Part shown: in pieces, positions 6,082 through 52,841 of the stretch | Position numbering within the stretch: position 1 is the stretch's first letter | Layout of the letters: each line of letters opens with the position of its first letter | Assembly (NCBI RefSeq): GCF_026151205.1 | Contig: NC_087080.1 | Coordinates: forward strand, 6,428,797 to 6,492,796 | Source of the DNA: Bolinopsis microptera | Lineage: Eukaryota > Ctenophora > Tentaculata > Lobata > Bolinopsidae | Length of the DNA stretch: 64,000 bases | Reading direction: 5' to 3' | Position numbers and translations under genes: made by a program | The notes under the pieces: generated by a model | Told to the model about the DNA's origin: nothing | Databases searched by the model: none | The model's input: the letters and a program-made list of their open reading frames with translations, nothing else

Positions 6082-6424
6082 TTTAACCAGTTCGCGGTTA
6101 TCGCACTCATAATATACAATATACATATTGTGTAATAGAGGTATTTGCTTTGTGTCAAGTTCACCGTTACTAACTTGTGGTTGAGTAGCATAGTCGAGAG
6201 TTACAAGAGTTAACCTTGATTGTTGTACTCAGCAAGAAGAACCTTGTACTCCGCAATAATATTTATTCGTTGCCCGTTTATCATTTTGTTGATTGATATT
6301 TATTTAGTTACTTGAAATGATCAGACTTTTTACCCGGTAACATTCTGTCATGCCAGTTTAAGACAAGGAAAGTAAGAGAAAGTGAAAGAGAAAGTGACCA
6401 AGTAAGCGAGTTGGAGTTTCTTTC

Positions 6425-7231
6425 ATGATACTGAGGAGTTTCTTTCAACTGCTTGCTCTTGTCACGGTACGTGTTTTAGATTATTTCAATCATGGGTTTG
6501 GGGTTGGGGGATTGCAACTTTTGATATACAACTACAAAGCATGGACGTACATAAAACTAAACTTGTTCGACAAATTTTAATTTTTTGGGAATTTTACATC
6601 ACTATCCTCTCACCATAACCATGATATTGATAATAATGAACGCTTTTTCTCAGGTTATTGGAGCAAATTTAGACGGTTTTGCAGATGCTGACTCGTCAGG
6701 ACAAGCAGCAACCTGTGAACAAGGGTCCGTTATACTTACAGATGGCACGGGTAAGTTGAATTAGCCGATATTTTGTCCCTGTTTATTCACCAAAATGTAA
6801 TTGAAATATACGAGATTGTTTGGTTACTCGTTGCAGTCATAAGTGTAATTCAATATTTCTATAACTTTACTAACCAGCTTAATTAACTAAACTGTGTGTT
6901 ATCAGGTTGTCAAGGTTGTCCCGCCGGTACCAAAGCTAAGTCTGATCAAACAGGTTGTGAAACGTGTCCTCTAGACTCATACAGGTGAGTTCACTGCCCT
7001 ACTGGTGGGGAGGTATTAGGTAAACCATGTTCTGACACGTGACAGTGTTTAACCCCAATAACGACCCTGTCAATCGAATTGTTAAGGTAGTTTGAAAGTT
7101 ACGAACAGTGTGCTTAACATTTCATATTCTGACACTTACTTTCAGCTTGGCGGAGGCTACAGCGTGTATAGAATGTGCTAGCCCGTTAGGAACTGTAAGT
7201 GATGGAAGCACCAAGGCTGAGGATTGCGTCA
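6425..7231 (+). CDS. Exons 1-4: signal peptide and GCC2/GCC3 cysteine-rich module
   Basis: Exons 6425-6466, 6654-6750, 6906-6984 and 7146-7231 (end phases 0, 1, 2, 1). The start ATG begins MILRSFFQLLALVT, a compact hydrophobic signal peptide with likely cleavage near VIGA. The preceding in-frame codons run into a stop, which supports this start. Exons 3-4 read C-x2-CP-x-GT, C-x2-CP-x2-SYS, then C-x2-C and a final C in a GSTKAEDC context. This is the spacing of the GCC2/GCC3 or ephrin-receptor-like repeat, usually found in extracellular proteins next to sushi, EGF or Ig modules. The exons are short and split by three introns, unlike most of the Ig exons. Confidence 0.8.
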
Positions 7232-10200
7232 GTAAGTTTAACTTCTAATATTTAATCTACCTTAAGCTGCAGTCACTCCAGTTATTTTTAATGGTTGGTA
7301 TGGCCTGCTTAGGTTTGGTTTATCGGTTCTACAGCGACATGAACGCTTTGGCGTCGTTGGAATTGTGATTTAATATAATATCATAGTCTAAACGATTTGA
7401 GGTTACCAATGAGTTCATGTTCAATTGTAGGAATTGAAATATTTCGTTACAGGCAGTAAGTTACAGGCTGCATCGTAAGGAATGATTGAGATAATGATTT
7501 GAACAGCCCATTTTAATTTTTTATTATTTACCGTGGCACACAGAACCGTGCACCTGCTACTTCCAGATAATTTGAAAATATAAATAAATAAACTATCATA
7601 TCCGGACGATTTTGATTCCCCGAAAATAATCGCACGTTCTTTTTGGAACTGTGGTGCGATTGAGATTTCTCTTTTGAATTTGATTCTTAAATTGCCCTAT
7701 CTGTGTCACTGATTCGTTAATTTGGGATATCATATCAGTACAGTATAATCATCATGTACTATGTAGAGTTTTTCATTCAGAACCAAAGATTATTCAAAAG
7801 AATCATAGGTAACTAAAACTGCCGTTCGACTGTCATGTAAACTTGATTAGTGCACTTGCTACTAATTTTTTTTGGTTTGGTAATTTGGTCGTAAATTATC
7901 AAACTAAAGAAATTATACCACGTTGCATAATGGACATTGGACATCGATAAAATATTCTTCATATAACGAAATTAACCTTTTTAGAGGTGTGTACGGTCCC
8001 GAGCGTGACGAATACGATAACCGGAACGACACCTTCTGGTACCAGGTTGGCAACTGGCGAGGATTCCACCATCGTGTGTGATAGTGGCTACCAGTACGGA
8101 GATCAGGAAACACAAATTATAAAATGTGACGTTTCCCTCGAGAACAACGGGTACCCTGCCGGTTGTAGAAGTAAGCGTGATATCTGTTTTATCCATTATT
8201 TTGGAAGTATTATATATTTGTTTAAATTTATAATTATATATTTGTTAAAATGATCATGAGATGCCCAATGCTCCGGTTTTAGAATAAGGCAGAAATGAAC
8301 CATCTTATCGATTATCAATAAAAACTGTGAGTATGCATGCTTTGGTTGTTATTCAAATACTTGTCAAAAATTTTTTTATAAGTTATTGAAAAAATTATTT
8401 TTTCAGAAATAACGCTGAAATTACCGGGTAATCCCTCCTTAAAAATGGGTAGCGAAGCGTCACTTATATGTATCGTCGAAAATGAGTCGGATAACTCAGA
8501 TATAACTTGGTTCAAGGGCGACTCCCAACTCCTTAGTTCAGATGACAACTACGGATTTGATATCGGTACAGATGCACTAACTTCTATTTTGACTATCAAA
8601 GTGCTGGATGATACTCACACTGCATCCTACTCATGTAAATTGAACTATGCATCTCCACTTCTCAGTGAACAGTCCATAACTGGTGACCTCACTGTCCTAG
8701 GTCAGGATAAGTTTTATTAAATGATACCTTTTTAAATTAAAAAATTATTTAGTTTTAAAATATTTTTGTTTGGAACTAACCCGATAATATTACCTCAAGA
8801 TTTTAAGCGAAGATACCATGCTACATTTTCAGTACTTTTAATAGAAGAATTAAAAGTACAAAAACAAGTAAACGAATACTTATATTCTAGTTTATTACTT
8901 ATTCTAGCATCATTCTAACCAAAAATAACATTGTGCACGATTATCCTAGTTCGATGATCCATGGCCATCTTACGAAAACAAATTTGTCTATTTCAAATTA
9001 TCTTGGTGTCTGGTAGAACTGCATCAAGGATCTGGAATATTAAATTAAAGGATTATTCTGTTGGAAATGCTCGATCACTACTAATAGGATCAATATGGAA
9101 ATGAAGCGTGTAAATTTACGAACTTTCAATTTGACTTATTAACAATTAATAATTAATATAATTGATGTGGATTCTCGTGGGGAGGTGAGGTACATTTGTT
9201 TACTTTAACATGGAGGTTCTTCTCAGCAGGAGACAGAGGTGATGCACATTTGTTTACTTTTAAGGTGGAGGTTCTGCTCAGCAGGAGAAAGAGGTGATGC
9301 ACATTTCGTATTATGGAACGCTTGTAACGCTTATAACTCCTTCTTGTTACCCCCCTTTGAAGGTCCCGAATTATTTTATGAACGAAAGCTTAAAAATAAC
9401 CGAGAAATCGACCTTGTTATCAACTCATTTTGATGACTGTTTCTGACCTAAAATTGAACGTGAAATCGATTTGTTAAGGAGACGATCTCCTTGTTCTTGT
9501 GTTGCAGGATCAAAATGTTCTTCGTTTGAGTAAAACATGAATTTTGAGGGATAAGGAAGTGTTGTTGGGTTGTAAAACCAACTTAAATCGATTTCTAGTG
9601 CAATGTTAGGTGAGGAACAGACACCAAAATGAGTTGCATACCTGATGTGTGTTTTCTTACTCTGCTCTTCGCTCAAGCTGCAAAGCTGCAATAAACATAT
9701 TGCAATAAACATTTCTCTCTGAAAATTGTGTTAGTACCTGTTCGATCAGTTAAGGTGATGATTGCCTCAATCTTTCAGGTTTCAGCTTTACCGCCTAGGC
9801 CCTAGGTCATGAGTAGAACCTAAGGATCAAAATATATGTTGCTTGTTGCTCGTATTAAGTATAAAACATCAATTTTGAGGGATAAGGAAGTGTTTATAGG
9901 TTCTGAAACCTAGTTAAATCGATTTTACGTGCAATCTTAGGTCAGAAACAGTCATCAAAATGAGTTGATAACGAAGTCGATTTCTCGGTTATTTTTAAGC
10001 TTTCGTTCAGAAAATAATTCGGGAACTTCAAAGGGGGGGTAACAAGAAGGAGTTATAAGCGTTACAAGCGTTCCATAATACGAAATGTGCATCACCTCTT
10101 TCTCCTGCTGAGCAGAACCTCCACCTTAAAAGTAAACAAATGTGCATCACCTCTGTCTCCTGCTGAGAAGAACCTCCATGTTAAAGTAAACAAATGTACC

Positions 10201-13200
10201 TCACCTCCCCACGAGAATCCACATCTATAACTCATCGTTTTATTTCCTCTTTACCTACAAAACATATATTTTTCAGACATTCAGATTTTTGTTTCTGACG
10301 TCGAGGTCGATCCTGCTGACGCCAAAACCCTAATTGTAGCTGGGGAAAGCCTTTCTCTCATGTGCCAAATGAAGGCTGATAGCAAATATGTGGACAGAGA
10401 GATAGAATGGTTTTATGATGGTGACGAAACAGTATGTAAAATTCTAAATTATCTTTTCGTAGGAAGACAGAAGGTTAATTACAAATTTTCTCGAGGAACA
10501 CTAAATGAATACGATCAAGAATAACATAAATGAAAACACTTCAGCCAACAGGCCTATTGGATGGTGAAACGTCGCCGTACAAACACAAAACTATGACCAA
10601 AACTGCTGAACTGACAGACACGGCAGATTATACTTGTACAGGTAGGAAAGGGGATAATGGTAGCGGACCACCTCCAAAACCCTGACATTCCTTTTCATAC
10701 CAGGCTCTTTTTCAATTATTGTTAAAGAAATGTTCATTCAAGCGCATATCAATGTTGATGGCCAATGGGATAATGGTTGGAATCTTCTGCTCAATCCAAC
10801 AGTCCCTAACGGCCATCATGGGATTGGTTTAACAAAATATGTTCCTAATAAATGGAGGCTTTTACTGAATTATCACCGGAAGTAACTAACGATCGATTTC
10901 TCTAATCATCCAACACTTAGGCACGTACGGTAACGATGGAGCACCATTACAGCCCTTGCCTATAACTAAAGAGGTAAAGGTGTACGTGCTGGGATACAGT
11001 GAACAACCGGAGAACACGTTTAGTGAAGTCGGAGTGGCCCTCGCCCTCAGCTGTACTGCACAGGGAGATGCTTCCACCACAATCACGTGGTATGTGTTGT
11101 TAAAATAAATCCAGTTAAAATAGAGTCAGTTAAAATAGATTCAGTTAAAATAGATTCAGTTAAAATAGATTCAGTTAAAATAGATTCAGTTACAATAGAT
11201 TCAGTTGAAATGAATTCAGTTTTTTCTTTCTTTAATTTGTTGTTTCCTTAGTTGTATAACTTTTTCACTCTTTTGCTGCCTAAAATGTACAGCACACTCA
11301 CCTCGAAAATGTTTACAAATTATCTGATTGATTACATCAATACATTTGAAGTCAATTAAAATAGGTTTATTGTTTCACCAAATTGTACATACCAAAAAAT
11401 CAATTTGGATAGCTGGATCACGTGGAATGTTTCCAGAATCTTGCACTGTCACCTTTGTTCCATCAACTATGGAGACTGGAGATGGCTATGCGATTTACTA
11501 AATTAGATAAGTAAGATTATGTAGACAGCTGCGAAGTCAACCACCTTTATAACAGGACTAAAACCGTTGAGGGGGTTGAATCAAACCCAACTCCTGAAAC
11601 TCCAACATTCCCTACATCATTGGAAACCTCGAGTGAACTTAGAATTAGCAGTGCTCAACTAAGCGACTCAGGATCTTATAAGTGCAGTGCCACCTTCGGG
11701 GCAACAACTGTGGAAAGTACTGTCGCTACAGTCACCGTTCTTGGTAGGTACCAGTTCTCTGATCGGTTTAGGCTTCTTAAGAGCCCAACTGTTATGTCCA
11801 GTATTTTACCTTTTTAGTTTTCACTGATAATTGGTAATTGCTAACTGCTAAAATACAAATTTGATGAATTACTGGATTTACAAAATTTTATTTTTATTCC
11901 ATGACGGTTAATATAATCAGCGTGCCGAAAAGCTGAAGTTCAAAATCCTCAAAAGTTAATTTGCATCTCTGAAAATACTCTCCCTATTCCCAGACATCGG
12001 TATCAGCGAGGACCCAGTAAAGATAGGGTTCCTAGCAGGAGAGGACGCTAGTTTGTCGTGCAAGGTAAAGAACCCGACGGATAACCCGGCCACTGTTTCC
12101 TGGATACTGGCGACAGCAAATGGAGATGAAGTGGTTGAAGATCAGTACATCCAGTGGGCTAACGAGAGCCCTGTCGGAACCTCCACTCTGGTATACGACA
12201 GGTTAGAACATGATGATATATTTTTGTATGTTATTTTCTTTTGTTTGGGTTTTAACCATTCAGAATAGTCAATTAAAGCCAATTCACGTGACACAAGAAA
12301 CAAAAAATCGATTGAAGGCCAAGGTATGATAAAATTTGGACAGGTGATGCAAGTGGATGGAAATTTAGCGTCCGCCGACAGTCGAACAAACGGGCGCAAT
12401 TCTTGTTGTATGTTATTTTCTTTTGTTTTAATGATCATCAGATGAAAGTTTTTCGCCGAAACAATAACATCAAACTGATCCGATATGCGTGTTTCAGTGC
12501 CACCCATGATAATGCTGGTGTTTACAAGTGTAAAGCAGACTACACTGTAGATGGTAAAACATACTCTCGGGAAAGCACACCTGTTGATCTCTTTATTAGA
12601 GGTAGGACAGTTATTCCTGGCAACTTGCCACATTCCTGGCCTGTTTCACTTCAATTTCTATTTTCCTGATCATGTTATTATAGTTTATAAAATTATGTCA
12701 ATAAAATTTTGTGTGAAGCTTCATTTTTTAGTTTAAGGCCTTTTCTATTTTTTATTGTTGATAGTATGAACTATGAATCAATTCCTATTCAATAATCTCT
12801 ACTATAATTCAGAGAATTATTTCTGATGTTGTTGTCTGTACGACCGCCCACGTGCAAATTCGGCAAAAAGCAAAAGGTTGCAAAGGAACCATGGTAACGG
12901 TTTCGTTACACGCACGTGCACGTGCAAAGATTGTTAAAACGGCATTTTTATCGGTTTTGTTGATATTATGTTGTGTTTAATGCGAGCAACATTTTAATCG
13001 GCTGTATGTTCGGTTGTGTAGGATATTTTGACGCGATTTAAACTCACTAACAAAAAATACTATTAGCTTCCTCCCTGTGACCACGGGTTTTCTAGTATTC
13101 AATAATATCATAAGTTCGAAATAAGATAAATCAAACACATGATTGTCATAACCTGAAACCCACAACTCAAATCTTCAGAGCTCCAACAAAAACTGGACGA

Positions 13201-16200
13201 GATCGCTCTGGTGAAACTGCCAGCCGATACTACCAAGGTATTTACCTGCACTTACAAGGGAGATGACGGTATTGAGAACATCAAATGGAATTTAAACGGA
13301 GATGGGTACGACGCGACATTTCATACCGAGTGGTCAGAAGTTGCGGTAAGGAATTCATAAAAAATGTCGGTTATGTAATGAATTTGTGTGACAGTTAAAT
13401 CATTTATTAGTATCATTCGGGGGGAAACAAATGATGTAATTCCGTTATCTACAGGGATCTTACCTTGCCGATGGCACATGGGAGAGCACGTTAACAGTAA
13501 CCAGTCTCACGAAAACCAGCGGAAAGCTAGTAAAATGTATCGTGGACTTCAAGGCAGACTCTTACAACAATGCATTGTCCTCCGAAAGCAACTTTGTTGT
13601 CCGCTGTAAGATGTTGTTAAAATGTTTCCTCCATTTTCTTTATCGACTCACTTCATTGTCCTCAGGCCATTTTTTACAATATTTCTCCTAACTGATTATT
13701 TTCAGCAATCTCTGAGGCGCCCGATGCGCAAACAATTTCTGATCAGGCCTCAGTGGATATCAGCTGTATTTACGCCGGTACCAACGACCCGGATACCGTT
13801 CAGTGGAGAGTTGACGGTTCAGTGAAGACATCAGCCGATACTGCTGATACCGGTTTTACTGTCACCACAGGGGTGTTCCATGGTTCTACAAATAACGAAA
13901 GGTTTTAAATACATTTTTTTACTTTTTGGACTATTTATATTTGCTGTTTATGTATCCATGTTTTATGTTCTTCCCTGACAACCAATACCAGGTAAAATGT
14001 TTAAGTTTTTTTTCTCACAAAAAAAACCTCAGAAAAACCACCTTGACAATAACCGGACGAGAATACACGGACGCAGAAAAAATTATCAAGTGTGAGTTTA
14101 TCTTCTCCACAAATCTCCCGCAAGAAACCATGGAATCTTCCACAACTCTACTCTTCCGAGGTATTTGTAGTATAATTTGGCCACAAAAGTTATGAGTAAA
14201 ATGGCTTACAAAGAGGCGGGGGTCTAATCCCGAAACTGCTACATAAACCGGAATTTCTTCGAGTATAAAATATAAATATGTCTCGTAAGGTATGTAGAAA
14301 AACAGAATCCATATGTCAAAGTGTCCCATCGCGTACAGAATATTTTATTTAATATTTGATTGACTCGTGTTTTATAATTATCTTTATATAATAAAGATAC
14401 TATATTCGAGTAAACATTGGCTGGCTAACAAACCAGTCCTTCAATAATTGATAAATTTAAAAAAATACAATAAGATGCATCATAAAATCGGTATCGCCTA
14501 TATTCCTGCTTCTGTTGTTCGATTCAATTCATATCTCCTAGGAATTATTACGCCACTGGATGCGAACTACTACTCGATTGGGACGGATTCTGTTTCCTTT
14601 ACTTGTGAACTAGGAGTAGGAGCTGATGGGGATGTCCCTGCTTATACTGAGTGGTAAGTCTGCATTCCTTTGTTGCTGATATTATGCTAGTTAGGTCTTT
14701 CAATTTTTACTTATTTACAACTTTACTTTGGCTGTGGAATGTATCTGGACTGTATCCTACAAATCATCAAATCAGTGTTCAGTATACATCACAATTTCAG
14801 GTTCCTCAACTACAATGAAGCAGATAGAACGCAAAACGAGGCACTAAAAAACGAGGGTGACTACGCCATAGTAACTGACTCTCAGATCAATAGCGGCAAA
14901 ATGGAAACTACTCTGACTATCTCTAGTGCCAATATCGCGGTCGCCCTTGCTGGGAAATACACGTGTGAATTCTCATATGACAACGGAGATTTCTATAAGT
15001 CTGAAGGAAACCTTGTTGTACGGCTGGTCACGATAGTACCTTCCGATGCCCAAATCTACAGCTACCGAAATGACGGGGTACAATTGTCATGTACACTTGA
15101 GTCGAGCGACATTACTACCGGTATAACATGGTCTGGGCCAACAGGGTTTGATCCGTCCGGTTTAACCAGCAAAGATCCAAACAATGTTCACACTTACATT
15201 CTGACCCTTCCAACCGATGCTGCTGCAGCCCAGTACAGCTGCGAATTTGCTTTCACTGATGGACCTACTTTCAAGCCGGTTGGCACCTTTCTCGATGTTA
15301 ACTTGAACCTGATCGAGATGACGAACCCGACCAAGATGTACAGTACCTATGGGGTTGGTGTTACCGTTACTTTCTCCTGTTCGGCTGGGTCTCGCTCCGA
15401 GATGAGTGACCTTAACTTCTACGACGGAACCCAGGAAGTTACAGCAACTAGGAGGAGCTATGAGAACGGCAAGACGAATGCTGAGTACGATTACGTGGTT
15501 GATACTAAAGATAAGGATGCGGAGTTTAAATGCTACAAAAGTGCAGATGAAACTTCCGATTCTACTACTCTTGATGTGATGACCTGGACACAAGAGCTTG
15601 CAGAGTCAACTGAAGGTTCTGCTGGAGATAGTGTAGTCTTGCTTTGTAAGGCAGAGTGGAACACAGTCGACCAGAACAAACCAGCCTTCACGTGGTTAAA
15701 GGGAGCTTCAGCCGCTGAGGAGACCAAATCAGACACAGAAGACACGTCAGGAAAAACGTGGGTTCAAAGTGAGCTGACGATCACTCTTGCCCCTGACATG
15801 GACGGCAGCGAGTACACTTGTACTGCTACATATACCGGACTTACAGCCGGCCTGACACTTACCAGTACAACCGACATCAAAGTCGCCAGTAAGTAAAATA
15901 TTTATTTTAAATTACATTATTTTAAATAAGTCATAACTGCCGATTAATGAGAACAGAAATTGCATGTCATATTATATGCTATTTTACCCGTACCTTTTTT
16001 GATTTTTATAAGTTTTGAAGTGATTATATTTTTTAAATGTAACTTATTGATCTCATATGCTCCTTATTCCAGGTATCGAGATTACTCCAGCGAAGTACGC
16101 CATCGTACCGACCGGAGAATCAGCGATGTTCACCTGTGTTGTGATAGCGAAGGACGGAGTCAACCTGAAGTGGAGAAAACATGCTGACGACTACACTGAG

Positions 16201-43200: not shown

Positions 43201-46200
43201 CTGACATCAACTCAATCTAACACACACATAAAAATGTACACAGAAACATAAAATATCTAAAAAATGTTCACTGACTTACAATAACCAAACCTCGTAACCA
43301 CAGATGGCAAGCTGTTGGATGACTCTCAAGATTACATGACGATCACAGAGGAACCACAAGGAAGGTCTATCCGAGTGAGCGCTCTCACTGTTGACAACAC
43401 CCGCTCTGACTTTAACGGACTGCTGAAATGTTCTGTTAGCTGGCCCGAACCTGCTCCTTACACTGCTGAGTCTACTGCAGAGGTATAGGAACCACCCAGT
43501 CTACCTTGACATTATATTTATGTTACTAAGATGCTTATTGTAGCCTGTAATGATTCTGTTTTCATCATCCTGCCATTATGTACGATTTCCCAAGAGAAAA
43601 CCAACTGCAACGGACAATTTTATACTCAATTTTGTATTTTTGAAATATTACGGCTAGTACGGTTATAACTGACCGTTGTGACTCATATAGCCCCCCCCCC
43701 CCCTCACATCCTGGTTCTAACCCCCTTGCTCCAGGTTACAGCTAGAGGAGCTTACATGGAAGACTACAGCTACTCTGACAGTAATGGTGATGGTGTGATG
43801 GTCTGTAACGCTTGGAATCCGGAAACTGTCTCAGTCACTTTCGCCTGGAAGAGATCGGATGGAACCGCTTTAGTGGCAGAGGCAAATAAGGTTTGTAGAA
43901 TTGTTCATCGAGAATAATGCATTAATTTGGATCTCTATCAAGGAACTCGAAATTTAAAAAACTTCAAATAACAACGGTGATGAATTCCAATGGTGTTAAA
44001 TTAACTTTCATAGTCATCGTATCAAACATATATTGTATGATAGTTTTAAATGCTAAACTCAAATCCATTTCTCTTCCAGATCACGATAACACCCGTAACC
44101 GAGGGAAGACTTCACACTAGTACAGTAAAATTACTGGGCATGACAAGTGAACAGAGTGGAGATTACCAGTGCGAAGTGAAGTTTGATGTTGAAGCTAGTC
44201 CTAAAATTTTCACAACCAAACTCCAACTTCTCGGTTAGTAGATTCTGTTAGTTTGTTTTAGAACATAATAATCCGACTGTTTACTGGCCTTGGGTAACGA
44301 GATGGAATCCGAACATTTATTTAATGTTGTTTATTTACTGATTAAAGAAAAATAAGCTAACTTGAAATTGTTCTGTAGCTGCAAGGATCGAACACTCTGG
44401 TCCCGACCACGACGACACAGCCTATATTGATATCGGTGCTGAACTTCTGATTACTTGTACTTACTCCGGAGACGAGGAACCCTCCATGATTGAATGGCTC
44501 AAGGTTCGTCCCTTACATTCTTTTCTTACATTCCTCTCTTACATTCCTGGGATCTTACTTCCATTTTTTATAGCTTCCTGTTAATTTACACAAATATAAA
44601 CATTCTCTTCCAAACCAGGGAACTGCTCTGAAGGGAGATCTGCTAACTGATCAAGATGTCACCTACGAAATCACAACCAGTGACTACGATTCAAGCTCCA
44701 AGAGCAGGAAGAGTGTTTTGAAGTTAAAAAACGGAAATGTCCTCGAGTCAGGACTCTACACCTGCAAGTGGACAGTAGCCTTGGGAGCTCCAACTGCTAT
44801 ACTTAACGTCCGTGTCATGGGTTAGTTCGTAGAAAATACTTGAACAGCCAATAGTTTGGTTTTTATCAACTTTAAATCTTTCTTGTGAAGTTTTTCTGAT
44901 CCTTGTAATACAAATCAACTGCTTCGTATAGCACATACTGTCACACTACGTCATGATTTTATTAATCCTAGGTTTGGACGTTACTGATGATGTTAAGGGC
45001 AAGACTTACGGTTTGGATGGATCACTAGTGGTTGCCTGTAAGTACAGTGGAATCGAACCTGGTACAATCTCGTGGCACAAAGACGCAACCACATTTGAAG
45101 CAGGCGACAAAATAGCGATGAGCAACGGAGAACTGTCGAACAACCATGCGACTTACACGCTCACAATTTCCGACGCAATTCCGGGATCAACTGACGGTCA
45201 GTACACGTGTAAGATGACGTACGATGACGGGTTCGAGAAGAGCACGGTACTCGAGGCTGTGGTGAGGACTGCTGCTGTGGTTGAGGGAGTGGATGATACT
45301 GTCGTGTCTCACGCTCTCGTCCTGGATGGGACACTTTCAATGAAGTGTATCTACAAGGGCGTGGCCCTGCCCAATGGTATTAGTTGGTTCTACGGAAGTG
45401 ACGAGATAGATTTCAATGACCCTAGTCTCTCTCTTTCTAACTCAATGAAGAGCAGAGTCTCGGACCCTGTCCATATCTACCAGAGCTCCGTAAACTTGGG
45501 AATTAAAACCGTGGCTGATGAAGGGAAGTACAGTTGTAGGTTCCATCTGGATGACAGCCAGGACCCGACAGCAGAAGCAGAGATCAAGGTAGTCTCAGTT
45601 ACAACACCTGATGTGTGCGTGTTCGTTGACTACGGAGCAGAAACTACGACGACTCTTACTTGTAGTTACAGTGGTTCCGCTGCAGCGCTCTCCTTCAAGA
45701 AAAAGTTCCCTGGGGGAACGGAGGTAGATGGAGAGTTGGGCGAGTTCAGTTCTAACAAACAGGTAGGATTCTGCAACAAGTTGCAAGTTTTAAAGCAGCA
45801 GAACCTTTTGTACTATTTACCTTACTCGGGATTATTATGACCGGGATAAAGTGGTGGGTTTAGGGTAATTTCGCCATATTTTTCCCGAACCACATTTTCA
45901 CCGGTCGTTAATAAACCCGCCTACTCAGCTTTTAGGGTTCCCAAGGGGTATGGGTGCTCATATTTTAATCGTTGTCTTATATTCACTAAAGAAGACTATT
46001 GGGACACTTGTTGTAGGTTTTTCGACTTCATTTGGCTAAAATTGCAATAAATTCACCTTTTTGCCCAATTCTTGTCATATATCCTTATTGTCAAATTTGA
46101 TTTAAATAGGCCAATTTTTAATTTCTTAGGTATTGACTATCTCTACATAATGAAATAGGACTCAAAGTAAAAGTAACAGTTAAATTAAAACTTGAATTAA

Positions 46201-49200
46201 TTAAAACTGATGAAAGGGATGATCCAGATGAAGATAACGAAGATGATTACAACTTATTGGAAGACTAAACAGCTCTCCCTTTATCTTAATATCGATCTGG
46301 TTGTTACACTTCAAATGTTAAAAATTATTTTCCATCTAGTTTGATTAACCACGAGTCATTATTTCTGTCTACTTTCAACAATTATTGATAATTCGACTTG
46401 TTTCAGAAGTTTTAGCAATGCGAAAATTTCTAAACTTGCTTATCTCTAATAAGGAAATTTACATCTGAGACAAAATTTTTGAATCTAAAATTGAAAGGTT
46501 GGACACCGGTAAAATGGCGACCGGGAAAATGTGGTGGGTTTTGAGCAATTTCGCCATATTTTCCCCGAACCATATTTTAACCGGTCGTTAATAAACCCGT
46601 CGTAATAATCCCGAGTAAGGTAGATCATTTTATTCGTCCCGAGTTCGTTTTGAGCTTGCAAAATGAGCATTGATTAGTACTAGTAGTGAACATCTTTTCA
46701 AAGTCACGTTTGGTAACATACCTGAAATAAATCATTAACATATCAAATTTCAGACCGGAACATTTGAACTGATCGACATCACGGACGCTAAGGCGGGGAC
46801 TTATGAGTGTGTCTTTGGTTTAGCTGATGATTTGAAGGCATCAACTGAGATTAAACTCTCAGCTCGAAGTACGTTTGGTCGAACTAATTTTAATATGGGC
46901 GAGCGCTTTATATTAGATAAACACTCAATTCACCACTGTAAAAAAACACAAAAATATAGCATTTCTTTGAACGACCAGTTTACTTAATTTTTTCCTTGGA
47001 CATTTTACAAATAGCTTCATATTGATTTTGACATAATCTCACTAAAAGATGTATTACTTCAGAGGCAGAAGTATCAACATCGGTCGGAACTTCTAATCCG
47101 CGTCTTCTGGCAACATCCTCAGTAACAATAACGTGCACTGTCGCATCTGGTGCTAAAACAATCACATGGTGGGTTGAACAAACCGTCAGTGGTTGTTAAA
47201 ATTACATGTTTGCGTGGTTGTATAATGTGCTCATAATTAATGCTCATAATTAAGTGCTCATAATTAATGCTCATAATTGATTCCGTGGATATGAATGGAG
47301 TAATCCCCTCAGGTACAAAGATGACTCTGAGTTTACCAACTACGAAGTCGTTGAAGAAAATAATGAGAAATCTGCGGTATCTTTCGACATAGAAGACAAC
47401 AGCGGTGGTTCTTACACTTGCAAAGGTGTTTACTACAACGATGATTGTCCAACCCAGCACACCTTCACATCCCAGGAAATAAACCTGGAAGTGATCACAG
47501 ACGTAGCCACAACCCAACCTAAGGACACCACGGTTACTGTGGGCGAGAAAGGTACCTTCGAGTGCGTGTTCCCAGATCCGTACGGAGAATCCAACGCACC
47601 AACTATCGAGTGGAGAGTGGGGAAACGGTTCTTGTTGGGTGATGATTTGTATAACGATGACGGAGAGGTTGTTATGGATGGATCTATTGAAAATGTTCGT
47701 AACCCTGGCACTTATTCAACTATTCTTACTATCGAAAAAGTCACCATTGAGTCTGCTGGAAAATACACCTGTTCTATCAAATGGGGCGGACTTTTCATTC
47801 ACTCGGAACCAGCTACGCTAATTGTCCGAGCCATCACAACAGAACCGTCCACCGTTAATGTTCCTGAGGGAACCGATGCTAAATTGTCTTGTGTTGCCAT
47901 ATCGGACGCGGTCGCCACGATCACGTTCCACAAAACATCTGACGATTCTTCTGTAACTACAGTAGTGAGTACGGAAGACAGTGCAACAACCTCAACCACA
48001 ACCATCACAACCACCGGGGTGTTAACTTTATCCGGTGTCACACCAAGCCACGCGGTGGATTACTATTGCAAAGCTACTTGGGGTGATCACAATGTGAAAT
48101 CCTCAAACGTGCACCTGTCTGTTCTGAGTGTGGTTCAGAGTAACATGGCTGATTCCTGGGGATTGGATGGGAACTCGGTGATGCAGTACTGTTACTACGA
48201 GGATAAGATCATGGCAAGTAACACCAAAGCTTTTGAAGACGAGGATGGAAGAAGTGTATTTGCTGTGACTAGTGTCGCTTGGGAGATATATGCTGGTTCT
48301 TGGTCTGATATATCTGACAACAGCTTGTGAGTAAAATTTTCATGTGAACATCATTGGGATTTTGCTTTTTGTGGGAGTCTATAAGAATTTTTGATAGAAA
48401 TTATATAGACATAAGAAAGTATGTTGTTTGTATTTCCCAAACAACTCTTCCATTTCTTTTTATTTGACTTTCAACCGTCTTAACCAAGTTTAACTTCCTT
48501 TTCAAGTTCACCACAGACTTTATTTTCTTCCATTTCACGATCTCAGTCGCGTCGTCAAGTTCACTTCTGTTTTCACCAGGATAACAGCTGGAACCACTTT
48601 CCGAGAAAACGGTCTAAACGTAGCCGTGGTCAACATCGGACCTCTTGCTTCAGACGCGCCAGACCATTCAGTGAGGTGCAAAGTAACATACACCGCCGAT
48701 CCGAACCACCATCTCGAAGGAGGTGTTATCACCTCCAGCTCCGTAAAAGTCAAAGTAATACACGTCACCTCGTTCGTGGTGCCCTCTAGCATTGCAGTGA
48801 CAGGAGACACAGTCACTTTGTCGTGCAGTGCAACTGGAGAAACTCAACCAACCTTCAAGTTCACTGCGGAGGGTTCACCTTTCTCAGCGGAATACTACAC
48901 GGAAGTAGCTGCCGCATCCTCTGTTGTTGATGGGGGAGATGGGAATGTGTGGAATTCTGAGTACAAGTTCTCAGTGAAGGCTCCTAACATGATTGTTAAC
49001 GGAGAAACTGTCGCTTGTGAGGTAGAAACACCAACTATTTCGCTCAAAAGCCCTTTGCTATTATATTCCCGATATTTAATTTAAACGATTGGTTTGGTTC
49101 GCACCTTTCATTATTTTATTATACTAATATTATATGTTTGTAGGCGATGCCTCCCCTAAATAAATGTATTGTCCAGGCTGAGTTTACAGCAGGAACAGTT

Positions 49201-51509
49201 AATAGTGAGGACAAAGAACTGAAAACATATTACAGTTGTGGCGGTGCCGAATCTAAGGCTAAGATTACGTTACTGAAAGGTTAGGGTGATTTGTTTATCA
49301 AGATAAAACAATGAATTTAATATTGAACATGATTCGACGTATCGATATTTGCAAGTTTTGCTAGAATTGTCTGATGGTTTAGAGTCTTAACATTGGTAAT
49401 TCTCCTCAGATACACTTGCAACAATATCTTACGGGTCGGTAGAAAGTGACGGCAGTTTGACGGCATCTACCGTATGTAATGCCAACACGGCGTCAGAGAA
49501 ATACACCAAAGCAAGTATGTTGTATCTTTGTACTAGTTACCTGGCCAATTATGTTCGATTGTGCGACATCTGTCCGACAGCGACATCTGTCCGACAGCCG
49601 GACAGATCATATCTCAAATTGGAAATGTGTCGTATTGAAATCAGATGATAATTTGGGACAGAGGTCGTTTATTTCTGGTACCCTGTGTCGGACAGATGTC
49701 GCTGTCGGACAGGAGTCGTGTTACCATTATGTTCAGTGAAGAGTGATCTTTGAAGAGCGATTTTTTCTCGGCTATTCACTCCATCATTTAGTTGATCTGA
49801 ATGATTTAATGATATTATATTCATTAAAGTGCCGATTAATCAAACTTATCGCACGTTCCTTCTCAGCTGAGACCGTTAACTCCGCATCTGAATCAAAATG
49901 CAGTAAAGACACAGGGTTCTGGACCCCTCCCTTTCTGTCCCCCTGTCTCCAAATAGTCGCCTTCTCAAAAGCTAAAGTTGAGCAGATCTACGATCTTAAT
50001 ACTTGGGTCGATAGCTCCGGGAAATACGAGGTATATTTCGGGGATGTTCTTGTTATTTGTATCGTAGATTCAGCAGGAGTTTTCTTTGAGTGAAATTTTT
50101 CCGTGAATTTTTTAGATGAAAACGATTGTTCTCGATGTTGTTAAAATAAATCAACTAATCACTTGTTCTTTTGTTAGTATTATCAATTGACGATCGTTTT
50201 GTCATAATCTCAAATTAAAACAAGTTTATTAACTCAGTTGTGTAATAACGATGCAGAAGCAGAGCTCACAGAAGCTAAGATAATAGAGTACATAACCAGT
50301 ACTACTAACGCTGACTGCGGGGCCCGACATGTTATTCCTTGCCTCAAGGCAGCTGATGGTATTTTTACTGTTCATCGTGCATTTTTACTGACCAAATCCT
50401 TAATCTATACCTGTTATTTTCGTCCAAACGATATTTCATGGCCTTTGCCGAGGATCATACCGCAGTTGCGGTAAACAGACCTGGTATCCCTTGCCAGTGT
50501 ACTCTAATTAAACCACAGCGTATTAGCTCCCGCACTGTGGATTAGAACCACGTTTCTAGATTTATCATTAAAGTTTGTGCGATTTGACCACCCGTTCACA
50601 TTTTCGTCTTATTTTCAGGAAGTTGTAGTGTTAAAACTGGAGCTGATTTAAACGGATGTGCTTGGGACAAAACTACTAAAATTCTATCTGTATTTGTAAC
50701 AATTGAGTTTACCCCCGAAGTAGAGACAATTCAGGAAAAGACGGGCTCAGTCACTATACCGGCCGGCGATAAATTACGATTCTATGATTGTGTATCCAGT
50801 ACAAACAAGCGCAGTGTGTTAATTGAGATTCTTGACCGGGGTCCAGTTGATACCACCCTCGTTATAACCAATACCACTGTCATTGATGAAGATTTTCCTG
50901 ATTTCGGTATGCTTTATTCGATTATATTCGCCTTTTTTAAGTATTATTTTCTATACCAGAAGAAGAAGAAATAGATAGCTATAAAAGTTTCTCGACACTA
51001 CTATATGATTGTTCTTATTATGACATTTTCGAATTTCTGATTTGATTAAAATCCCTTAATTCTAATAATTTTTAACATGACTTGATTGTAAATAATAACA
51101 ATTTGATACGACTATTCTTCAGATATAATGGATAGGTCAAGCGATGAAACAGCCAAGTTAAGATTGCTACTCACCGTAGGGGGTGTATGCGTTGCAGCGC
51201 TTATTATAATAGCAGTCACTCTAATTGTCAGAAGGTAAAATTAATTGATTCTTAATAAATTACCAAATCAACTTTGAAATCATTATTAGACTAATTGAAA
51301 GTGATCAAGCAGAAAATTTGAGCGGTTGTACATCTCGTTTCAGTGGCTGAGTAATATAACTCAGCTCACTTGGATGGGGTGACGTTCTCAGAAAATGTTA
51401 GTCATACAAATTTTATAATTCACAATTAAATCTCAGGAGGACAGTAAATAAAAGAAAGACGTTGAAAGTCGAGGTCTTCCCCGGTAGATTGGTGATATCA
51501 GACGCATAA
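6425..51509 (+). CDS. Giant type I membrane protein with about 52 Ig-like domains
   Basis: Eighty-one coding exons were traced by hand. All introns are GT-AG, all phases agree, and the summed coding length of 17,106 nt is divisible by three (5,701 residues). Order: signal peptide (residues 1-17), GCC2/GCC3 cysteine-rich module (about 47-101), sushi-like module (about 102-163), Ig domains to about 5,380, an unrecognised membrane-proximal region with cysteines, a transmembrane helix (about 5,655-5,677) and a basic 24-residue tail. Most Ig domains show the first Cys, the core Trp and the D-x-G-x-Y-x-C signature. There are no fibronectin III, kinase or other enzyme domains, so Dscam, titin and receptor kinases do not fit. 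It most likely sits at the cell surface with a very long ectodomain. An adhesion or recognition role is inference. Exon coordinates are in the entries that follow. The main uncertainties are the transcript ends and a few weak donors (8701, 13902, 23298, 41959, 49022). Confidence 0.85.
7985..8170 (+). CDS. Exon 5: sushi/CCP-like module
   Basis: One 186-nt exon bounded by phase-1 introns, encoding about 62 residues with four cysteines (VCTVP..., TIVCDSGY, IIKCDV, AGCR). The C-D-x-G-Y element and four-cysteine layout fit a sushi (complement control protein) fold, and sushi modules are classically single phase 1-1 exons. The Trp usually found just before the last Cys is missing, so this is a divergent member. 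It sits between the cysteine-rich module and Ig1. Confidence 0.65.
8407..14160 (+). CDS. Exons 6-16: Ig domains 1-6
   Basis: Exons: 8407-8700 (Ig1, one exon); 10277-10431 + 10545-10641 (Ig2); 10921-11089 + 11556-11743 (Ig3); 11994-12201 + 12498-12601 (Ig4); 13179-13345 + 13455-13605 (Ig5); 13706-13901 + 14033-14160 (Ig6). Each domain shows a Cys in strand B, a Trp in strand C and a Cys in strand F (Ig1: LICIVEN, ITWFKG, ASYSCKL). Borders between domains are phase 1. Introns inside domains are phase 0 or 2, and in Ig3 the intron splits the core Trp codon. Donors at 8701 (GTCAGG) and 13902 (GTTTTA) are weak but are the only ones that keep frame. Ig2 is short and its second half is compact (DYTCTG). 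Confidence 0.8.
9164..10225. mobile_element. Foldback/MITE-like element in intron 6
   Basis: Terminal inverted repeats of about 290 bp: the left arm starts GATGTGGATTCTCGTGGGG (9164) and the right arm ends with its complement (10225). The arms match through at least 9164-9460 and 9930-10225 with few differences. The spacer holds a diverged direct repeat (about 9527-9640 and 9860-9970). No transposase is encoded, so this is a non-autonomous DNA element. Target-site duplications could not be assigned. Confidence 0.8.
11105..11220. repeat. 15-bp tandem repeat in intron 9
   Basis: About seven copies of TCAGTTAAAATAGAT with point variants, directly after the exon 9 donor. Confidence 0.85.
14542..15888 (+). 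CDS. Exons 17-18: Ig domains 7-10, including a fused four-domain exon
   Basis: Exon 17 (14542-14653) carries the first half of Ig7 and ends inside the core Trp codon (phase 2). Exon 18 (14801-15888, 1,088 nt) completes Ig7 and then encodes Ig8, Ig9 and Ig10 with no intron. Landmarks are VQLSCTLES and QYSCEFAF (Ig8), VTFSCSAG and EFKCYKS (Ig9), and VVLLCKAEW, TWLKG and EYTCTATY (Ig10). Ig9 lacks the usual Trp (LNFYDG), with Phe in its place. Elsewhere in the gene most domains are separated by phase-1 introns, so this exon looks like local intron loss or a primitive intronless array. Confidence 0.85.
16073..17062 (+). CDS. Exons 19-21: Ig domains 11-12
   Basis: Exon 19 (16073-16384) is a complete phase 1-1 Ig domain (AMFTCVV, LKWRKH, TIECYEE). 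Exons 20 (16607-16750) and 21 (16913-17062) together encode Ig12 (VIFTCTV, IEWFQK, VYYCLAT) with a phase-1 intron between strands C and E. Confidence 0.85.
17173..22870 (+). CDS. Exons 22-33: Ig13-21, oldest copy of the 8-Ig block
   Basis: Exons: 17173-17484 (Ig13); 17673-17993 (Ig14, type b); 18120-18416 (Ig15, type c, single exon); 18583-18873 (Ig16, d); 19032-19142 + 19372-19557 (Ig17, e); 19698-19849 + 20009-20189 (Ig18, extra); 20582-20860 (Ig19, f); 21040-21143 + 22191-22359 (Ig20, g); 22571-22870 (Ig21, h). Types b to h recur in the same order at 25138-36532 and 37332-41692 with near-matching exon lengths: d 291/306/306, e 111+186/114+177/114+174, f 279/276/276, g 104+169/104+166/104+163. 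Ig18 has no counterpart in later copies. Ig21 has lost the core Trp (VVFNDG). Confidence 0.85.
21882..22080. repeat. Intron-borne repeat, copy 1 (intron 31)
   Basis: A stretch of about 185 bp starting CTACATGACTGTGATATTAA is repeated at 23659 in intron 35 with few changes. The two introns are not in equivalent positions of the domain block, so a dispersed element is more likely than carry-over from block duplication. It contains TTTCAG, which could act as a decoy splice acceptor. Confidence 0.75.
23002..23060. repeat. Short tandem repeat in intron 33
   Basis: About 3.5 copies of a 17-bp unit, TGTACATTAAGTACATT-like and partly self-complementary (TGTACA/TGTACA). Confidence 0.8.
23136..24444 (+). 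CDS. Exons 34-37: Ig domains 22-23
   Basis: Exons 23136-23297 + 23446-23574 (Ig22: NLVCTGD, IEWFAA, EYTCTVKY) and 23986-24141 + 24280-24444 (Ig23: VLSCDYN, AKWFKK, YYCQLQY). Both have a phase-1 intron inside the domain and phase-1 borders. They sit between the oldest 8-domain block and the next copy and have no clear counterpart in the later copies, so they were either lost there or inserted here. The donor at 23298 is GTACTT; the next exon rejoins in frame at 23446. Confidence 0.8.
23659..23930. repeat. Intron-borne repeat, copy 2, with a tandem tail (intron 35)
   Basis: Second copy of the 21882 repeat. It is followed by about six degenerate copies of a 20-bp unit related to AACAGCTTCTCCAGCTAAAAT (about 23806-23915); two to three such units also follow copy 1. 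Confidence 0.75.
24655..36532 (+). CDS. Exons 38-48: Ig24-31, second copy of the 8-Ig block
   Basis: Exons: 24655-24954 (Ig24, like Ig13); 25138-25431 (Ig25, b); 25630-25785 + 25904-26050 (Ig26, c); 31693-31998 (Ig27, d); 32113-32226 + 32374-32550 (Ig28, e); 35112-35387 (Ig29, f); 35511-35614 + 35921-36086 (Ig30, g); 36254-36532 (Ig31, h). Shared type signatures include b 'F-x-G-T-x-x-P' before the Trp, c 'GGTGPT', d 'HTNANFKI' and e 'LQMPQ'. All domains keep both cysteines and the Trp. The copy is stretched by two long introns: intron 41 (26051-31692), filled by a nested palindromic element, and intron 44 (32551-35111). Confidence 0.85.
26051..26419. repeat. Decamer minisatellite in intron 41
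   Basis: About 36 tandem copies of TAGTTGTTAA with variants (GTTGATAGT, GTTGTCCATA), starting directly at the exon 41 donor. Confidence 0.95.
27016..28926. mobile_element. Inner palindromic element B with telomeric tract
   Basis: The left arm 27016-27617 and right arm 28352-28926 are inverted complements of about 575-600 bp (outer end ATACTTAAATCACCAATATT) with small indels between them. The spacer 27618-28351 contains the telomeric tract. No coding capacity was recognised. It lies just inside the left arm of element A and abuts element C. Confidence 0.85.
27719..27836 (-). repeat. Interstitial telomeric repeat (TTAGGG on the minus strand)
   Basis: About 19 uninterrupted CCCTAA units on the plus strand, with no variant unit. 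The site is internal to a gene intron and to a foldback element, so it is not a chromosome end. The lack of divergence suggests recent capture or active turnover. Confidence 0.97.
28926..31018. repeat. Dispersed repeat C, copy 1
   Basis: Shares long collinear similarity with 54790-56561 (start: ATCACA-TGCTGGCAAGCA; end: GGTTTTGGTCAAA). Copy 1 carries GC-rich hairpins at 29060-29115 that are absent from copy 2. The last part (30511-31018) is itself a palindrome, with arms starting TTTGACCAAAACC. No protein-coding capacity was recognised. Confidence 0.8.
29060..29115. repeat. Two perfect GC-rich hairpins with GAA loops
   Basis: Hairpin 1 (29060-29078): GTGCACGC, loop GAA, GCGTGCAC. Hairpin 2 (29083-29115): a 15-bp perfect stem CCGGAGGCGGCGGCC, loop GAA, and its complement. 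The flanking similarity to copy 2 of repeat C continues on both sides, so this reads as an insertion of roughly 80 bp. Confidence 0.9.
32551..35111 (+). other. Intron 44, long intron between Ig28 and Ig29
   Basis: No domain-like exon, transposase or terminal repeats were recognised. Near the acceptor is a direct duplication of about 40 bp (35018-35056 and 35066-35104), each copy carrying a palindrome around AATCTACGTAGATT (ATG in the second). A pyrimidine-rich CT tract lies at 32817-32849. Confidence 0.6.
36635..41692 (+). CDS. Exons 49-60: Ig32-39, third copy of the 8-Ig block
   Basis: Exons: 36635-36783 + 37041-37200 (Ig32, a); 37332-37646 (Ig33, b); 37841-37996 + 38120-38263 (Ig34, c); 38448-38753 (Ig35, d); 38954-39067 + 39307-39480 (Ig36, e); 40315-40590 (Ig37, f); 40751-40854 + 41068-41230 (Ig38, g); 41414-41692 (Ig39, h). 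Order, intron phases and exon lengths repeat those of the previous block almost exactly. Ig39 and Ig31 share a 157-bp stretch at about 98 percent nucleotide identity inside otherwise diverged exons. All eight domains keep the Cys-Trp-Cys core. Confidence 0.88.
39530..39900. repeat. Decamer minisatellite in intron 56
   Basis: About 37 tandem copies of GGATTACTTA, with a GGATCACTTA variant interspersed in a higher-order pattern, directly after the exon 56 donor. Confidence 0.95.
41822..42811 (+). CDS. Exons 61-63: Ig40-41, partial fourth copy; Ig41 has no cysteines
   Basis: Exons 41822-41958 + 42211-42355 (Ig40) match Ig32 (TYKGDNDVSS in both). Exon 42509-42811 (Ig41) matches the b-type domains Ig14/25/33 (FEGTFEPTITW against FEGTNQPTIKW). 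Ig41 has Val where the strand B cysteine should be (IEVKF against LICEF) and Ala in place of the strand F cysteine (VSAKLEF against VTCKLEF); the exon encodes no Cys at all. The Trp and flanking hydrophobic pattern remain, so the fold is probably kept without its disulfide. The donor at 41959 (GTTTAT) is weak but frame-consistent. Confidence 0.82.
41983..42030. repeat. TGTACA palindrome cluster in intron 61
   Basis: Several overlapping GTACAATGTAC and GTACATTGTAC palindromes in tandem that could fold into a hairpin. Confidence 0.7.
43019..44820 (+). CDS. Exons 64-69: Ig42-44
   Basis: Exons 43019-43129 + 43304-43482 (Ig42: KFQCKAT, IKWYLG, LLKCSVSW), 43735-43890 + 44080-44233 (Ig43: MVCNAW, FAWKRS, DYQCEVKF) and 44379-44503 + 44619-44820 (Ig44: LITCTYS, IEWLKG, LYTCKW). 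The border between Ig42 and Ig43 is phase 0, the only domain border carrying an intron that is not phase 1. A C13 run (43691-43703) lies 31 bp before the exon 66 acceptor. Confidence 0.83.
44972..46868 (+). CDS. Exons 70-71: Ig45-47, second fused multi-domain exon
   Basis: Exon 70 (44972-45762, 791 nt) holds Ig45 (VVACKYS, ISWHKD, YTCKMTY), Ig46 (SMKCIYK, ISWFYG, YSCRFHL) and the first half of Ig47 without introns. Exon 71 (46754-46868) completes Ig47 (TYECVFG). Ig47 has Phe instead of the core Trp (LSFKKK). Intron 70 carries a TA-flanked element. Confidence 0.85.
45820..46620. mobile_element. Non-autonomous DNA element in intron 70
   Basis: Ends are inverted complements (CCTTACTCGGGATTATTA), flanked on both sides by TA (45818-45819 and 46621-46622), as expected for Tc1/mariner-type insertion. 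A segment of about 78 bp (GTGGTGGGTTT..., 45851 and 46530) is repeated directly near both ends. A frame ending at 46268 encodes an acidic stretch (DERDDPDEDNEDD) followed by a stop. It could be a transposase remnant or chance. No other coding sequence was recognised. Confidence 0.75.
47063..49021 (+). CDS. Exons 72-74: Ig48-52, third fused multi-domain exon
   Basis: Exon 72 (47063-47168) ends inside the Trp codon of Ig48. Exon 73 (47313-48326, 1,014 nt) completes Ig48 (SYTCKGV), encodes Ig49 (TFECVFP, IEWRVG, KYTCSIKW) and Ig50 (KLSCVAI, YYCKATW), and starts Ig51. Exon 74 (48547-49021) completes Ig51 (VRCKVTY) and encodes Ig52 (TLSCSATG, TVACE). Ig50 (ITFHKT) and Ig52 (FKFTAE) carry Phe in place of the core Trp. 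Exon 74 begins with a single base completing a Phe codon split with exon 73. Its donor at 49022 (GTAGAA) is only moderate but is the only GT that rejoins exon 75 in frame. Confidence 0.8.
47227..47282. repeat. Short tandem repeat in intron 72
   Basis: Four copies of a TGCTCATAATTAA-like unit lie just before the acceptor of exon 73. Confidence 0.8.
49177..50906 (+). CDS. Exons 75-79: unrecognised membrane-proximal region with cysteines
   Basis: Exons 49177-49279, 49410-49514, 49867-50030, 50238-50358 and 50619-50906, about 260 residues. I recognise no known family. It has about ten cysteines (YYSCGG, TVCNAN, SKCSKD, LSPCLQ, LCNND, ADCGAR, IPCLKA, GSCSVK, NGCAWD, YDCVSS), no Ig signature and a strand-rich last exon (ILSVFVTIEF, VLIEIL). 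A possible N-glycosylation site (ITNTT) lies close to the membrane. The cysteine spacing differs from EGF, sushi and TNFR modules. It may be a membrane-proximal stalk fold or a lineage-specific domain. Phases fit throughout (0/1, 1/1, 1/0, 0/1, 1/1). Confidence 0.7.
49563..49720. repeat. Small palindromic repeat in intron 76
   Basis: CGACATCTGTCCGACAG occurs twice in tandem at 49565-49598, and its complement (GTCGGACAGATGTCGCTGTC) occurs at 49687-49706. Together they form a hairpin-like unit of about 150 bp with no coding content. Confidence 0.8.
51123..51234 (+). CDS. Exon 80: transmembrane segment
   Basis: Encodes an acidic juxtamembrane stretch (MDRSSDETAK), then a hydrophobic helix of about 22 residues (LLLTVGGVCVAALIIIAVTL...) followed by a basic stop-transfer (RR). 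It ends in phase 2. Signal peptide plus this single helix gives type I topology with nearly the whole protein outside the cell. Confidence 0.9.
51437..51509 (+). CDS. Exon 81: cytoplasmic tail and stop
   Basis: The acceptor TCTCAG accepts phase 2 and gives a 24-residue tail (RRTVNKRKTLKVEVFPG then RLVISDA) ending at TAA 51507-51509. The basic start continues the stop-transfer signal. No ITAM, ITIM, SH2-binding or other signalling motif is visible. With this exon the whole coding sequence is an exact multiple of three. Confidence 0.7.
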
Positions 51510-51513
51510 TAAA
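51508..51513 (+). terminator. Possible polyadenylation signal AATAAA
   Basis: A canonical AATAAA overlaps the stop codon of exon 81. If used, it would leave almost no 3' UTR, so a more distal signal may be the real one. Confidence 0.35.
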
Positions 51514-52560
51514 CAGTTATATTAGTAATAATTCTAATATTAGTTATTATATCAGAACGAGATTTACCTTTCTTAAAGTACTAATTTTTAAATGCTTTTG
51601 GTTATTTAAAGTGTACATCTTGTATCAAGTTAAGTTCTCGCATTGTGTACATACCAACATCGAATATCTGTTGTCATGGGAATGCGTCTACTAAGCGAGA
51701 TTCTTTCATTTTAGAGATATTCACCTTAGGAGACATATTTTTACGGCCTGAAATTTGGGCCTTTTCGACCCTCGCTTCATACTTTTCTGATGTCATTTTC
51801 AAATCTTCACATATAATATCCCCCAAATTTCGTGACCCGCATTTCCAACATGATTATGTCTCCTGAGGTTTTATACATATGGTGATTGTCAATTCTTATT
51901 ACTGCTGTCAGTGTCTGCTGGGATATTGATCACACGTGACCACAAAAACCCTGCTTTGACGCATTTTATCCTTAATTTTGAACGTTTTTAAAGTGTTTAT
52001 GCTGCAGTCAGCAGTGAGATGTATGTTGATGAAAAATCGACTTTTTGATACGCGCCAGTAGTAATAGTATAGTTAGAAATCTATCTATGAGGTAAGTTCT
52101 TCATAGTTTCCTGTTCAAGGAATCCATCTTCTATTCACAGATCACGCATAATTGTAATACACTTGATATGAACAAGTGACGTCTTGTAAAATGCTTTATA
52201 TTTTGTAATTAAAAGTAAAAATGAGAATTAAGACAAGTTAAACGACAAAATTATCTTTATCAATGAGTCTTCTGAATGGTAACATCTTCAGTGGCTTTAT
52301 TAAATCTTTTTGAGACTAGTTTTTAGTGGTTCTACTAATGAAATTTTGTAAAACTAATAAATTGTGATAAATGTTTATTTAACTAATTGTCGTTTTGAAT
52401 TTTGAAACACAAATACATGTTTTCTTTTGTCCGGTTTCAGGTCTGATGATGTATGATCCTGTTATATCAGTATGCCTGTGTGAAAATGTATCAGAAATGA
52501 GTAAATTAAATAGTTGTATCAGTATGTACTAATGTTAATTGACGATGTCAATTCATCGCA
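51510..52560 (+). other. 3' flank of the giant gene, with an alternative last exon
   Basis: At 52441 a strong acceptor (CCGGTTTCAG) is also compatible with the phase-2 end of exon 80. It would give the five-residue tail R-S-D-D-V and stop at 52454-52456. That C-terminus (D at -2, V at 0) resembles a class III PDZ ligand. Otherwise the stretch is AT-rich with no gene seen. Confidence 0.4.
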
Positions 52561-52810: not shown

Positions 52811-52841
52811 GATCGTTGCTCTGCGAAGCAGAGCAACGATC
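52811..52841. repeat. Perfect hairpin with GAA loop
   Basis: Stem GATCGTTGCTCTGC, loop GAA, then the exact complement. The tip is GCGAAGC, a heptamer known to form an exceptionally stable DNA mini-hairpin. Confidence 0.9.

Follow-up and report, generated by a model that had tools for sequence, protein, structure and literature searches.

Does the stretch between positions 6425 and 51509 of the window (the whole 64,000-nt stretch of DNA that was analysed) hold one gene for a giant membrane-bound immunoglobulin (Ig) protein or several neighbouring genes, and what could such a protein do? The initial annotation had described 81 exons that sum to whole codons and encode ~5,700 residues. Our hand-curated gene model reproduces this count, with 81 coding exons on the plus strand (6425–51509) and a coding sequence of 17,127 nt that gives 5,708 amino acids plus a stop, the sole stop being the last codon; the coordinates of the initial annotation were in view during curation, so the model is not blind to them and the agreement at the 3′ end is not independent.

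The exons came from a purpose-written gene finder that scores coding potential and splice sites. Untrained, it returned two genes (6636–27847 and 28264–52770), retrained runs gave single chains of 93 exons (to 53,473), 80 exons (to 52,757) and 79 exons (to 53,458), and a trained run with heavier splice weights broke the chain at 9.8/10.6 kb. All automatic runs ended at 52.7–53.5 kb, beyond the 51509 of the final model, which is the 79-exon run minus seven exons plus nine exons (six taken over from other runs, the last three set by eye). The gene finder permits no splice type but GT-AG, so all 80 introns have it by design, and weak splice sites occur among them, such as the exon 12 acceptor (−3.3). 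The exon-chain score was 4771 bits on the plus strand versus 194 on the minus strand and 8–24 in five shuffles, a score inflated by training on the same region. In a cross-check in which one half was used for training and the other for scoring, the model's frame outscored the two others in 80 of the 81 exons and the score was above zero in 76 (exons 1, 46, 79, 80 and 81 fell below zero). The gene model is beyond chance. Its introns are mostly in phase 1 (57/80), and downstream of the stop an ATTAAA is present from 52208. The features are as follows.

6425–51509, plus strand: whole gene model, 81 coding exons, 5,708 aa, hand-curated
6425–6466, plus strand: exon 1, start codon and signal peptide, which runs on into exon 2 (6654–6750)
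6654–7231, plus strand: exons 2–4, Cys-rich GCC2/GCC3 (Ephrin_rec_like) repeat, by Pfam
7985–8170, plus strand: exon 5, four-Cys sushi-like module (Sushi, 18.0 bits)
8409–17064, plus strand: Ig domains D1–D12, by Pfam and by exon and motif
17175–24446, plus strand: Ig domains D13–D23, with relatives of D13–16, D19 and D20 in the later blocks
24657–24956, plus strand: Ig domain D24, a relative of D13 (47% identity)
25140–37202, plus strand: Ig domains D25–D32, first copy of an eight-domain duplication
37334–42357, plus strand: Ig domains D33–D40, second copy of the eight-domain duplication
42511–42813, plus strand: Ig domain D41, nearest to D14 and D33, with both Cys lost despite that resemblance
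43021–49278, plus strand: Ig domains D42–D52, of which D51–D52 are the longest and least typical
49410–50906, plus strand: exons 76–79, juxtamembrane region, no Pfam match
51123–51234, plus strand: exon 80, transmembrane helix, by hydropathy
51437–51509, plus strand: exon 81, most of the 25-residue basic tail and the stop codon
52356–52361, plus strand: AATAAA, the first such signal past the stop

The predicted protein (615 kDa, pI 4.33) runs from a signal peptide through a GCC2/GCC3 repeat, a sushi-like module, 52 Ig domains and a juxtamembrane region to a transmembrane helix and a 25-residue tail, the same order as had been annotated. Ephrin_rec_like, which we take to be the present Pfam name of GCC2/GCC3, scored 26.4 bits on a 133-aa N-terminal fragment (cut-off 23.1) and 22.0 bits in a longer N-terminal piece, just under the cut-off; in the PDB, the N-terminal fragment matched EphB2 best (E 0.0013). 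The Sushi profile reached 18.0 and 16.0 bits, both under its cut-off of 20.7 (best E 0.004), so that of the annotated GCC2/GCC3 and sushi pair the former is upheld and the latter stays at a sub-threshold match. By exon and motif we counted 52 Ig-like domains, and Pfam Ig_3 alone gave 47 separate stretches at E≤1 (9+11+9+14+4 in the five pieces that make up the whole protein), in keeping with the ~52 tandem domains reported from first reading. At least two Cys are found in 51 of these domains, Trp in 49 and the strict second-Cys motif in 24, and the Ig fold with paired Cys, Trp and second-Cys motif places them in the Ig superfamily. The domains follow one another nearly linker-free along the rod. 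FN3, VWA, EGF, LRR and kinase domains were not among the whole-protein Pfam matches listed at E≤1 (HMMER filters remove most matches above 0.1).

Among 19-residue windows of the protein, hydropathy is highest at the C-terminal helix (2.75), followed by the N-terminal signal peptide (1.69), which agrees with the annotated placement of these elements at opposite ends; by hydropathy and sequence, the signal peptide, single helix and basic cytoplasmic side define a type I single-pass protein. Exon 80 also gave a sub-threshold match to the Pfam ErbB1 transmembrane segment (17.0 bits, cut-off 27.1). The cytoplasmic tail is as minimal as had been described (25 residues in the model) and contains no tyrosine, which sets the protein apart from ITAM/ITIM receptors. 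For exons 77–79 the best PDB match had an E of 1.8 and was taken as chance, and exon 79 alone gave a poor predicted fold (pLDDT 41). No RGD occurs in the protein.

Net charge is negative in all 52 Ig domains (mean −7.6, range −15 to −4). Threonine makes up 13.2% of the residues, and arginine only 1.4% versus 5.7% for lysine. DG and DP pairs occur at about twice expectation (67 versus 31.9 and 28 versus 14.8, respectively), and dibasic sites are not depleted (28 versus 27.3 expected).

The protein carries only five N-glycosylation sequons in 5,708 residues, where shuffling within domains expects 49.8 (sd 6.2) and the minimum of 2,000 shuffles was 30. Depletion is seen in all thirds of the protein (3, 1 and 1 versus ~17 each), and D, E, K and Q stand before x-S/T above expectation. 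Alignment of paralogous domains in nine families, which take in 25 of the 52 domains, showed N with S/T at +2 once versus 8.7 expected from the paralogues, and the corresponding counts were 32 versus 19.3 for D, 29 versus 26.7 for K, 14 versus 14.0 for Q and 31 versus 37.8 for E. This purge of sequons would imply contact of the chain with the ER machinery, and a bare surface as the favoured state. The scarcity could instead be a general trait of the lineage rather than the outcome of selection on this protein, an explanation that is compatible with a tether function and that we hold to be possible but on the unlikely side. Base composition does not explain the scarcity, as 29 and 27 sequons occur when this coding DNA is read in its two alternative frames, a reversed-motif control lies at expectation (48 versus 49.7) and N-P-S/T, which the transferase is not known to use, is enriched (10 versus 1.7 expected). 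Per 500 residues, the giant Ig protein has 0.44 sequons; the mean for human sequon-bearing membrane proteins is 4.9 (PMC10987669). No report of a sequon purge in a giant Ig protein was found among the titles and abstract openings of the open-access literature covered by a limited set of search terms. Together with the uniform acidity of the domains and the block duplication and gene conversion described below, the purge is new relative to the initial annotation.

The history of the Ig rod can be read from its internal copies. The eight-domain block D25–32 recurs as D33–40 at a constant shift of 8, with 45–80% identity in 8/8 pairs, and older copies are found at shift 11 (D13–15 to D24–26) and at shifts 19, 18 and 10. 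Across 762 aligned codons of D25–32 and D33–40, dN was 0.34 versus a dS of 2.09, which means that the internal copies have probably been under constraint; dS reaches saturation in four of these pairs and lies at 1.7–3.0 in another three, so the dN/dS ratio is rough. One pair, D31 and D39, is an outlier in dS and has the following tracts.

36243–36506, plus strand: exon 48 (D31), gene-conversion-like tract in common with exon 60, 88% nucleotide identity, dS 0.38
41403–41666, plus strand: exon 60 (D39), partner of the exon 48 tract

The likeness extends over 264 bases, from 11 bases upstream of the exon to 26 bases before the exon 3′ end, and the flanking introns are dissimilar on both sides. 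The simplest reading of this pattern would be local gene conversion.

Two introns also contain insertions with inverted ends.

26466–31570, no strand: insertion in intron 41 (26051–31692), ~560-bp inverted ends that are 98% alike; ends approximate
9161–10228, no strand: insertion in intron 6 (8701–10276), 313-bp inverted ends that are 97% alike; ends approximate

Intron 6 has a length of 1.6 kb. Within the intron 41 insertion lies a perfect 6-bp array, (TAACCC)x19.8, at 27718–27836; this unit fits the usual animal telomere repeat. The same insertion has one copy of a 1.5-kb repeat (29123–30656) whose other copy lies downstream of the gene (54879–56380, 85% alike), and the two probably represent a mobile-element family. 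Tandem arrays of 10-bp units that differ from each other were observed at 26058–26417 (~36 copies, intron 41) and 39495–39909 (~42 copies, intron 56).

Taking gene, domains and surface together, we favour, with moderate confidence, a single gene for a type I membrane protein of ~615 kDa that acts as an unglycosylated, polyanionic Ig rod for adhesion or tethering, although length, charge and scarcity of glycan sites are no proof of adhesion. The adhesion or recognition role suggested in the initial annotation is plausible. In the arrangement that we infer at the cell surface, the signal peptide would bring the chain through the ER, and the helix near the C-terminus would anchor it with the short basic tail remaining inside. 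At ~4 nm per Ig domain, the 52 domains of the ectodomain would form a rod of ~200 nm if straight. This rod would carry a small Cys-rich tip (GCC2/GCC3 and sushi-like) held far from the cell, which could bind a distant partner. Because all Ig domains are negative and N-glycan sites have been cleared, the rod is predicted to be naked and polyanionic, and its sugar-free acidic surface may serve lateral, homophilic or cation-mediated contacts, or act as a repelling brush. Taken together with a tyrosine-free tail, this layout would suit a long rod for tethering or adhesion better than a receptor with signalling through its own tail. A more speculative version, which we regard as rather unlikely, is a protein polyelectrolyte brush, with all-negative rods of ~200 nm that were purged by selection, block-duplicated and locally homogenised. 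If this is true, peptide charge would do the job of a mucin glycocalyx, or cations would bridge sugar-free lateral bundles.

An unlikely alternative to the tether rod is a giant with a structural role in the extracellular matrix or at a specialised cell contact, used in the manner of hemicentin and either anchored or shed near the membrane. Hemicentins are of similar size and tandem Ig number (>600 kDa and >40 Ig domains; PMC8429575), but no VWA, EGF or fibulin-type module is among the Pfam matches of the giant Ig protein, and a transmembrane helix is present.

We consider it improbable that the protein is a highly variable recognition or allorecognition receptor in which the many Ig domains provide a diversified binding surface, perhaps by exon skipping. 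Skipping would keep the frame for any exon flanked by phase 1 introns, and most introns are in this phase; Ig and sushi domains are also combined in Botryllus fester and FcoR (PMC12065747), and one exon pair (48/60) looks recently converted. However, the tail is without tyrosine, unlike those of FcoR proteins, the internal copies appear constrained with no excess of amino-acid change, and adjacent domains are no more alike than average (mean of 25.5% at shift 1, none above 40%, versus an all-pair median of 25.3%). Alternative exon arrays of the Dscam type were rejected because neighbouring domains are not alike.

The remaining question is whether the model has fused neighbouring genes, or joined main transcripts that start or end inside it. 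The sequence favours the single gene that had been proposed. Introns at Ig borders are in phase 1 in 42 of 43 cases (those within Ig domains comprise 12 in phase 0, 10 in phase 1 and 6 in phase 2), and the D25–32/D33–40 block spans the two longest introns. The longest (intron 41 with its insertion, 5.6 kb) lies between D26 and D27, within the duplicated block, and its sister between D34 and D35 measures 184 nt; the second-longest (2.6 kb) lies between D28 and D29, with a sister of 834 nt. Because of the border phases and the span of the block, one gene would be the best fit. The 1.0-kb introns at 21,144 and 45,763 interrupt Ig domains, and a gene border there would split a domain.

Fusion of several genes is quite improbable, and one example of it would be a secreted D1–D16 protein followed by a membrane protein that starts just upstream of exon 26. 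Upstream of exon 26 (19032) and in frame with it, a possible internal start at an ATG (18965) opens a signal-like segment (18965–19031) whose hydrophobicity has an 11-residue mean of 3.05, and read-through of the exon 25 donor leads to a stop at 18906. Yet such a signal-like stretch is found at one of 80 later exons versus one of 160 wrong-frame readings, which is near chance, the intron before exon 26 is 158 nt long and in phase 1, and no comparable stretch precedes exons 43 and 55 at the related junctions. Similarly, a transmembrane-like terminal reading with a stop (37645–37728) matches the phase after exon 50, but it would skip exon 51 while taking in the final two bases of that exon, and it has a coding score of −37 versus −16 for exon 80; it is probably due to chance. 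The automatic runs that broke the chain (untrained at 27.8/28.3 kb and one trained at 9.8/10.6 kb) would also suit several genes; the 28-kb split of the untrained run falls inside the intron 41 insertion. Signal-like ATGs number 11 (in four places) on the plus strand versus 2 on the minus strand, in a scan that is blind to any signal peptide interrupted by an intron, as is that of the gene itself; three of the four places are out of phase with the next exon, and the fourth (33788–33914) is in phase but has a coding score of −34. Botryllus fuhc offers a precedent, as it was initially taken for a single gene and then found to be two, 227 bp apart (PMC12065747). Against this, the sequon purge is seen in every third of the protein. 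Other candidate ends and starts were also rejected. Transmembrane-like readings after an acceptor number five on the plus strand and two on the minus strand; of the five, three are out of phase, one is the 37645 reading with its score of −37 and one (51123) is exon 80. At 28.9–29.2 kb, a hydrophobic open frame was not accepted as a transmembrane exon, since much of its hydrophobic stretch consists of a 17-bp tandem repeat (28975–29035), and it too sits within the intron 41 insertion. The hydrophobic stretch before exon 38 was dismissed as an internal start because it has no ATG.

Outside the gene, six-frame translation of 51510–64000 gave no Pfam match at E≤0.1, and four of six frames of 1–6424 gave one sub-threshold match only (14.1 bits, cut-off 34.1). 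Five small, weak gene-finder models (41–363 aa) were obtained in these flanks (~19 kb), and no further gene was recognised there. Searches for structured RNAs returned no Rfam match at the gathering cut-off and no tRNA.

If the locus is one transcription unit, the giant Ig protein would be, to our knowledge, among the longest membrane-tied Ig ectodomains. The sequon purge provides evidence, drawn from sequence alone, for ER passage and for the importance of a bare surface, and could serve as a test for other giant surface proteins, while the internal block duplication indicates the way in which the rod has grown.

Among known systems, no protein of the same architecture was found in titles and abstract openings of the open-access literature searched with limited terms. 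The GCC2/GCC3 (Ephrin_rec_like) repeat is common to Eph receptors and to SVEP1/polydom, the latter built of a VWA domain and a long sushi array, whereas the giant Ig protein has no kinase or VWA match and no long sushi array. Dscam, with about ten Ig domains plus FN3 and, in arthropods, alternative exon arrays, is likewise a membrane Ig rod, and a predicted model of D13 matches a Dscam Ig domain; the giant Ig protein differs in its 52 Ig domains, with no FN3 match and no array of alike neighbours. Hemicentins, which are not known to have a membrane anchor, are alike in size and Ig number. Their N-terminal VWA and C-terminal EGF and fibulin modules (PMC8429575) are not among the matches of the giant Ig protein. 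Botryllus fuhc-tm, fester and FcoR are membrane Ig proteins too, with sushi domains in fester and FcoR, but they are about tenfold smaller (fuhc-tm ~535 aa with three Ig domains; FcoR 520–610 aa with tail tyrosine motifs; PMC12065747). Aplysia ApLRRTK is a single-pass receptor with a GCC2_GCC3 region, but it has an LRR ectodomain and a tyrosine kinase (PMC4200351), with no long Ig array. Titin, twitchin and other cytoplasmic Ig giants share the tandem I-set Ig domains, and the predicted D13 model matches titin Ig domains, whereas the giant Ig protein has a signal peptide, paired Cys, a transmembrane helix and no FN3 match. In those giants the Ig domains are cytoplasmic and mostly mixed with FN3. 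The difference extends to the sequons, of which human titin has 163 in 34,350 aa (PMC10987669) versus 5 in the 5,708 aa of the giant Ig protein.
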